From NCBI GenBank assembly GCA_903843705.1, contig CAIMQW010000057.1, forward strand, positions 1 to 45,283: a stretch of 45,283 nt of DNA, written 5' to 3'. How positions within the stretch are numbered: position 1 is the stretch's first letter; each line of letters starts with the position of its first letter. The notes under the pieces are model-generated. The model searched no databases, was not told the DNA's origin, and saw only the letters and a program-made list of their open reading frames with translations. The position numbers were made by a program, and so were the translations under genes. The DNA comes from an uncultured Holophagaceae bacterium (GTDB lineage Bacteria > Acidobacteriota > Holophagae > Holophagales > Holophagaceae). This document shows, piece after piece, positions 3,185 through 15,839 of the stretch.

Positions 3185-3691
3185 ATGTCCCGCGTCTGGT
3201 GGTGTCTGGTGGTGTTGCTCACCCTCACGGGGTGCAAGGAGGATCCGCACCGCGTCGAGAACGAGAACCTCGGCATCGCCGCGACTTTCCCAGGAACGCC
3301 CAAGCTGCACCGGCACACGGACCCTGGCCCCTATGGGGAGGTGGAGTGGTTCGACCTCGCCATGAGTCCCGCGGGGCGCCTGGACGAGACTTTCAGCGTG
3401 GCGGTGGGCAACCTCCCCCCCGGGGACAAAGGCGGCAGCAACGCCCGCGACATCCTCAACACTTACCGGAACTTCCTGGGCTACCGCTTCGGCGCCATCC
3501 AGCGCACGGACCTGCCCGCCGAGAAGGGGCCGGGGTTCCGCTACAAGGTCAAGGGTCCCAACGGCGGGATTGTCGAAGGGATTGTGGTGGTGCGCCGGGG
3601 GCGTCTGCACCACGCCCAGGCCATCGTGCGCAAGGAGGGCGACTCGCGCACCGCGGCGTTCCTGGATGACTTCGAGGTCAGGACCCGGTAG
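3185..3691 (+). CDS. Putative lipoprotein, function unknown
   Basis: MSRVWWCLVVLLTLTGCKEDPH: signal peptide with lipobox LTGC. Confidence 0.7.
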   Translation: MSRVWWCLVVLLTLTGCKEDPHRVENENLGIAATFPGTPKLHRHTDPGPYGEVEWFDLAMSPAGRLDETFSVAVGNLPPGDKGGSNARDILNTYRNFLGYRFGAIQRTDLPAEKGPGFRYKVKGPNGGIVEGIVVVRRGRLHHAQAIVRKEGDSRTAAFLDDFEVRTR

Positions 3692-14647: not shown

Positions 14648-15364
14648 TCAGCCGCGGTTGGCGGCCTCCATGGCCACTGCCCGGGGATGCAGCAGCTGGT
14701 TCTCCAGGTAGATGTGCAGGTGCGTGTCCGCCTCCAGCACTCGGAGGCCGTCGTAGAGCGCCTGGAAGCTCGCGCAGCCGTCGGTTGGAACCATGTAGCC
14801 CTGGGTGAAGGCCCGGAGGTCCGCCAGCATCCCGCCGACGGCTTCGTGCTCGGCCTCCATGACGCGAATGGGGCTCTGGACCGTGCCAAAGCAGGCGGAG
14901 CCGCTCTCGCCGGCCTCCATTTGCCGGATGAAGGGGAAGAGGATCTGCTCTTCCTTCATGAGGTGGGGGATCAGGTCCGCGGAGAGCTCCTCGAACCGCG
15001 CGGAGACATCCTGCAACTCGGGATGATTCTCTCCGTGGGCGCGGAGCACCTTCTGGAGGAGGGCCTCCAGCCGCGGCAACTCCGCGCGCAGGTAGGCGTG
15101 GTGGCTGCTCTCGAGGTGGTCCATCAGGGCTGTCAGGGAGGCCTTGAGCCAGGACTGCGGCGAGGGGGCATCCGGGGCGGGCACCTCCAGAGCCGTGAGC
15201 CCCGTCAGGATCGCTTCCGGAGCCAGGCCCGCGGCCACGCAGGCCTCCCCCAGCGTGCGGTGGCCGCCACAGCAGTAATCCACGCCCTGGCCTTCCAGGT
15301 AGCGCATGGCTTGGGGCCAGGCGAGGACGACGTCGCCAACCTTGGTGCCGAGATCGATGGTCAT
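14648..15364 (-). CDS. ric: Iron-sulfur cluster repair di-iron protein (Ric/ScdA/YtfE family)
   Basis: MTIDLGTKVGDVVLAWPQAMRYLEGQGVDYCCGGHRTLGEAC (ScdA_N with CCGG), then hemerythrin-like His/Glu-rich region (DHLESSHHAYLRAELPRLE; HLMKEEQILFPFIRQME; EAEHEAVGGMLADLR). Confidence 0.92.
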   Translation of the reverse strand: MTIDLGTKVGDVVLAWPQAMRYLEGQGVDYCCGGHRTLGEACVAAGLAPEAILTGLTALEVPAPDAPSPQSWLKASLTALMDHLESSHHAYLRAELPRLEALLQKVLRAHGENHPELQDVSARFEELSADLIPHLMKEEQILFPFIRQMEAGESGSACFGTVQSPIRVMEAEHEAVGGMLADLRAFTQGYMVPTDGCASFQALYDGLRVLEADTHLHIYLENQLLHPRAVAMEAANRG

Positions 15365-15436
15365 GGGGTCTCCTTGGTTCGGCCTGGAGACCCCACCCCG
15401 CGGGCGGACGACCAAGGCTCATCCTTAAATCATACA

Positions 15437-15467
15437 AAAAAGATCACCTATTCTGTAATATCTTTTT
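15437..15467. repeat. Inverted repeat, 8-bp arms, 15-nt spacer (candidate operator)
   Basis: AAAAAGAT (15437-15444) ... ATCTTTTT (15460-15467). Confidence 0.55.
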
Positions 15468-15475
15468 ATATTGAT

Positions 15476-15506
15476 ATATCTAATTTATTTTCAATAAATT
15501 AGATAT
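15476..15506. repeat. Palindrome, 14-bp perfect arms, 3-nt centre (candidate operator upstream of ric)
   Basis: ATATCTAATTTATT-TTC-AATAAATTAGATAT. Confidence 0.7.
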
Positions 15507-15515
15507 TGAAAAAAG

Positions 15516-15839
15516 TTAGGGCACGGGGTCGGATCCGCCCTGAGTCAGGGGGGAACACCGCAGGATGCGCCAGGTGGTGAGGAGCCCGCCCCGCAGGGTG
15601 CCGAACTTCTGGACGCAGGCCAGGCCGTAGTGGCTGCAGGTGGGGGTGAACTTGCACTGGGTGGGCAGGTGCTCCGAGAGGACGGCCTGGTAGGCGCGGA
15701 TGGCGCCTCGGCAGGCCCAGGCGGTGGGCTGGAAGCGCACCGGCAGAAAGGCCTCCAGGACCAGGAGCAGGGCCACGGTCGCCGCGGGATGAGCCAGCAG
15801 CCAGAGATACACCCTAGGCCCCCGCGGCGGCATCGGCAT
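15516..15839 (-). CDS. yidD: Membrane protein insertion efficiency factor
   Basis: RAYQAVLSEHLPTQCKFTPTCSHYGLACVQKFGTLRGGLLTTWRILRCSPLTQGGSDPVP: YidD signature. Start uncertain (overlaps the ispG 3' end). Confidence 0.92.
   Translation of the reverse strand: MPMPPRGPRVYLWLLAHPAATVALLLVLEAFLPVRFQPTAWACRGAIRAYQAVLSEHLPTQCKFTPTCSHYGLACVQKFGTLRGGLLTTWRILRCSPLTQGGSDPVP

Follow-up and report, generated by a model that had tools for sequence, protein, structure and literature searches.

The window analysed here, a stretch of 45,283 nt from an uncultured member of the Holophagaceae, raises a question about a single intergenic region: what is the function of a long and very AT-rich palindrome that lies between two genes of a GC-rich genome? 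The gene ahead of this region is yidD (15516-15839, minus strand; PF01809, E = 1.5e-24). The gene that follows is ric (14648-15364, minus strand, ATG at 15364), which encodes a di-iron Fe-S cluster repair protein of the ScdA/YtfE type. In profile searches, its product scores 223 bits against TIGR03652 (cut-off 204.7) and has the ScdA_N and Hemerythrin domains (PF04405 and PF01814). We saw no regulator gene beside ric. The host genus is Geothrix-like, within the Holophagaceae, and is presumably Geothrix itself. The original prediction was that the palindrome is the operator of an uncharacterised regulator responding to NO or to the redox state.

The intergenic island spans positions 15425-15515 and has 16.5% GC, against 67.9% in the window, where it is the sole island below 35%. 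It contains a perfect 14-3-14 inverted repeat of 31 bp, ATATCTAATTTATT-TTC-AATAAATTAGATAT, at 15476-15506, whose 3-nt centre reads GAA in the direction of ric. Both features had been described upstream of ric before this analysis, and we found their sequence and coordinates to be exact. The 14-bp perfect arms make this the longest inverted repeat of the window (with spacers up to 8 nt). In 20,000 dinucleotide shuffles, the island gave best arms of this length only once, which excludes chance as the source of the arm length and gives the palindrome the dyad symmetry generally expected of an operator. Such structures are scarce: in 800 kb sampled from a sister species (G048), the AT-rich repeats with arms of at least 13 bp were the ric palindrome and one other only. 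The palindrome is present once in the genome of the window (G000), even when up to 3 mismatches are allowed, and thus does not show the multiple copies of REP- or MITE-like elements. Since this genome has no second exact or near copy, there is also no regulon from which the regulator could be read.

The position of the palindrome is best described relative to the ric promoter. The minus-strand hexamer TATGAT (15429-15434), previously noted as resembling a -10 element, is exact in sequence. Each of the five species that carry the palindrome (see below) has either TATGAT or TATTAT here, in alignment with the -10 region of the ric promoter found across the genus. We infer that the ric promoter uses it as its -10. 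Relative to the start predicted in this way, the palindrome is centred near -69, and its near end is at about -54. No good -35 hexamer was seen at the ric promoter of these species. A second repeat, with 8-bp arms (AAAAAGAT at 15437-15444 and ATCTTTTT at 15460-15467), does exist in this genome as reported, but our results do not support it as an operator: its arms are perfect in G000 only, and ATCTTTTT reads ATCCTTTTT in the four sister species. It is thus not a maintained feature, and we regard it as promoter spacer. The leader of ric also contains a perfect 10-bp inverted repeat, TGGGGTCTCC-N12-GGAGACCCCA (15364-15395, minus strand; fold of -22.5 kcal/mol, z = -3.4), which would sequester the Shine-Dalgarno sequence and touch the ATG (GGGGTCTCC...GGAGACCCC-ATG). 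None of the four sister species retains this repeat as such.

We searched 93 genomes of the class for the long form of the palindrome, allowing up to 3 mismatches, and found it in five, each time upstream of ric. The carriers—G000, G041, G048, G017, and G040—are sister species. Their central 23 bp, CTAATTTATT-TTC-AATAAATTAG (15480-15502), are identical, and the distance between the palindrome and the TATGAT or TATTAT hexamer is constant, so within this clade one finds the conservation of sequence and of promoter distance at orthologous loci that is generally expected of operators. The surroundings are more variable: almost every position differs in the adjoining 11 bp on the yidD side, and in the leader, from the -10 to the start codon of ric, only 53% of the columns are invariant, against 87% in the coding DNA on the yidD side. 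The invariance of 23 out of 23 positions is striking when compared with the leader and modest when compared with coding DNA, and its depth is that of five closely related species. Inside the arms, the sole variable pair consists of the symmetric positions 4 and 28 (15479 and 15503), which are T-A in G000 and G040 and G-C in G041, G048, and G017; the outermost left base of the palindrome varies as well. The tree of the ric proteins, ((G000,G041),(G048,(G017,G040))), groups G000 with G041 and G017 with G040, and the paired change therefore took at least two events, although intergenic recombination could mimic two paired changes.

Three observations make the palindrome behave like an operator: the fixed distance to the promoter, the invariant 23-bp core, and the symmetric paired substitutions. 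In addition, the inner arms stay A/T in genomes with 68% GC, which favours a sequence-specific reading over mere pairing. We consider it probable that, in this one clade of five species, ric is controlled by a dimeric DNA-binding regulator that has the palindrome as its operator. Our results support this part of the original prediction. The proposed link to NO or redox sensing did not fare as well, as the identity of the target gene is the sole argument for it.

The palindrome is separated from the yidD stop by 9 nt and is on the same strand in the sense of transcription. The ispG-yidD transcript could thus end in an RNA hairpin formed by the palindrome, acting as a terminator or as a stabiliser and standing ahead of ric by happenstance. 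The predicted fold (-11 kcal/mol, z = -5.0) speaks for this possibility, and the paired substitutions are compatible with an RNA stem too. Yet an intrinsic terminator has a G+C-rich stem followed by a T-tract, whereas here the stem is made of A-T pairs, no T-tract follows it on either strand, and a terminator search found none. The palindrome is also missing in several relatives that have yidD directly before ric (e.g., G046, G018, G036), which further disfavours the role of yidD terminator that had been named as the alternative. Finally, the ten inner pairs and the loop are invariant, with no drift towards G-C at 68% GC, and pairing alone would not require this. A search of the palindrome region against Rfam gave no match at the gathering score, and only NrrF below it (18.3 bits for a cut-off of 60, E = 0.86). 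Sequence invariance, A/T retention, and symmetric substitution together speak more for a protein operator than for an RNA stem, and we regard the hairpin as improbable.

If the palindrome is an operator, then its history can be read from the ric promoters of the other species. We built a tree of 43 ric proteins, 41 from the genus and 2 from the outgroup. All 36 genus ric genes of the tree that fall outside the palindrome clade have a GTGA-N6-TCAC site with at most 1 mismatch, located 61-74 nt before the ric ATG and just after the -10, and the palindrome is absent from all of them. Inversely, the site is found in none of the five species of the palindrome clade, where the best match has at least 3 mismatches. 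The two elements are thus strictly mutually exclusive among the genus ric promoters compared. Each label changes once on the ric tree, and the palindrome clade is recovered with a support of 100/99. Conservation upstream of orthologous ric genes, on which the first reading of this locus had been made to depend, therefore holds within the five-species clade and fails as a general feature of ric, because the palindrome is not conserved elsewhere in the genus ric tree or in the 93 genomes of the class.

The genus ric promoters outside the clade (e.g., L020, L021, and L007) share the same organisation, with a conserved block GACCTTTTTAGT, then a -10-like stretch, and then TGTGA-N6-TCACG. When we used the block GACCTTTTTAGT to search for further targets, we obtained only chance sites besides ric. 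The other genera of the family have TTGACCGGCGTCAA-like sites, of the FNR/HcpR type, before ric. Many leaders outside the clade also contain a conserved CATC(T/C)TGG around 20 nt downstream. Four genomes (G047, G037, G042, and G038; loci L057-L060) encode a second type of ric, around 40% identical, that is divergent from the gene of an Rrf2-family regulator; between the two genes lies an inverted repeat, ATTGGAT...ATCCAAT, which may be where this regulator binds as its operator.

The disappearance of the CRP-type site is not explained by the disappearance of its putative regulator. One conserved full-length CRP/FNR protein is present in 11 out of 11 genomes searched, with further members of the family in G048 and G009. 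Because all five palindrome species have a match to this family, we rejected the loss of a CRP/FNR regulator as the cause of the site swap. The recognition helix of the protein, ASREAFSR, is identical in the five genomes for which this was established, three from the clade (G000, G017, and G048) and two from outside (G046 and G034), and in an alignment it falls opposite SRETVNK of structurally characterised GlxR-like proteins. From this helix, we infer that the CRP/FNR protein of the genus binds the TGTGA site. The persistence of the protein in the palindrome clade suggests that the cis site was lost while the trans factor was kept. We propose the following scenario. The ancestral CRP-family site over the -10/+1 region would be, judging from its position, a site for a CRP/FNR-family repressor. 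In the palindrome clade, it would have been replaced by an upstream dimer site, such that ric left the control of the CRP/FNR protein of the genus and passed to another dimeric regulator. In summary, the palindrome is real, clade-specific, operator-like, and apparently under selection; it would be an operator of an ordinary kind, whose replacement of another site is unusually clean to see.

Class I activator sites and LysR-type recognition sites are centred near -61 to -72. The palindrome resembles them in being centred near -69 from the predicted start of a promoter that lacks a good -35 hexamer, and for this reason the new site is probably an activator site. A repressor site seems less likely than a site for an activator or one for primary recognition by a LysR-type protein. 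The same arrangement is compatible with an AT-rich upstream promoter element that binds the alpha-CTD or curves the DNA and involves no specific regulator: the AT content is extreme ahead of a promoter without a good -35, and AT-rich stretches precede ric in other species as well. But a 31-bp dyad and symmetric substitutions would both be superfluous in such an element, and the palindrome ends near -54 (from the predicted start), farther upstream than is typical. We find this explanation very unlikely.

The operator reading could be refined if the regulator were shared with other promoters. It is possible, although we advance this only tentatively, that the palindrome belongs, as a strong representative, to an AT-rich motif that recurs across the genus, TATAAATTATTTATTTTCAATAWTTAAAA. 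The core of the motif, ATTTATTTTCAATAA, with up to 1 mismatch, was found at 21 places other than ric in 47 genomes; the reversed pattern gave none, and a dyad scramble of the same composition gave 6. The extended motif TATAAATTATTTATTTTCAATAWTTAAAA was found at 21 places versus 0. With a sequence-only model built without the ric sites, the top-scoring place of the window is the ric palindrome (12.2 bits, E = 0.014), and the model detects new sites at orthologous promoters, those of a comEA-like gene (in G020) and of a ccoS/flavin oxidoreductase (in G046). However, the motif sites were gathered using the ric core as bait, which makes the likeness partly circular, and the resemblance between the palindrome core and the motif is thus suggestive only. 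Furthermore, the motif sites turn over fast between species, and the flanks of the ric palindrome differ from the motif. The palindrome core did not appear among the k-mers enriched in AT islands across 800 kb of G048.

A more ambitious version of this idea would see in the palindrome an optimised ric copy of the operator of an undescribed regulator, active at many promoters of the genus: those of Rrf2/cytochrome c, ccoS/flavin oxidoreductase, a porin-like gene, indolepyruvate oxidoreductase, and others. By a site swap, ric would then have passed in one clade from the CRP-family regulator to this one, while the CRP-family protein was kept. We think this unlikely. The names of the genes at the motif sites were read from their translations, and only the Rrf2 protein was tested with profiles. 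This protein, encoded beside a motif site, was considered as a candidate regulator and rejected because the motif is only loosely kept in its orthologs. Other long AT-rich repeats were observed in the clade. A second palindrome, TTATTTATTTTCAA-TAY-TTGAAAATAAATAA, with arms of 13-14 bp and a 3-nt centre, precedes a zinc-ribbon/TM2-like gene in G000 (C253:1743-1772; L117, L176) and in G017 (C229; L122) and is built from two inverted copies of the motif core. An AT-rich island of G048 (C30:74366-74463; L165) has two adjoining long inverted repeats, with arms of 13 and 9 bp.

Beyond the class, a search for the exact palindrome core in 84,980 genomes returned 7 matches, four of them within the five-species clade. 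We judged the other three—two in Methylococcaceae, beside accA, and one in Apibacter—to be coincidental AT-rich palindromes. In both Methylococcaceae (L064, around position 3216, and L067, around position 127), the palindrome ahead of accA is CGCTAATTTATT-N3-AATAAATTAGCG, and its central 23 bp follow the pattern seen at ric. The core was not found in viral contigs.

These results matter for several reasons. They provide a clean natural case of what appears to be operator replacement at a single gene, with one site in 36 relatives and another in 5. The 31-bp site is a defined bait for the regulator of Fe-S repair in Acidobacteriota, and for this phylum our literature searches turned up no experiments on how Fe-S repair genes are controlled. 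As a by-product, the analysis yields a testable genus-wide CRP-type site at ric.

How do these promoters compare with known systems? As originally remarked, the palindrome does not fit known consensus sites, and we found no fit to those published for NsrR, HcpR, or NorR (PMC1274295). The NsrR operator has the consensus gATGyAT-N5-ATrCATc (PMC1274295). Like it, the ric palindrome is an AT-rich inverted repeat of odd length that accompanies a ric-type gene, and G000 has 8 matches to the Rrf2 family, but the half-sites do not correspond, and the palindrome differs in its greater length (31 bp) and in its position, which is upstream of the promoter rather than over it. An NsrR site was thus rejected by comparing the sequences by eye. 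The HcpR/CRP-type consensus at nitrosative-stress genes is wTGTGAnnnnnnTCACAw, and in B. fragilis and Desulfuromonas the dnrN (ric-type) genes are reported to be under HcpR control (Rodionov et al. 2005, PMC1274295). The genus ric promoters outside the clade are close to this consensus, with TGTGA-N6-TCACg or nearly so, whereas the palindrome clade lacks the TGTGA-N6-TCACA site (0/5), and TGTGA does not occur in the 31-bp palindrome. The genus site also differs in its placement just past the predicted -10, a position that points to repression. A further parallel is with regulon rewiring, in which operators turn over while the target is retained. The replacing regulator at ric is known here only through its candidate site, a difference from such cases; the likeness is that ric was kept, its CRP-type site was apparently replaced in one clade, and the CRP/FNR protein was retained.
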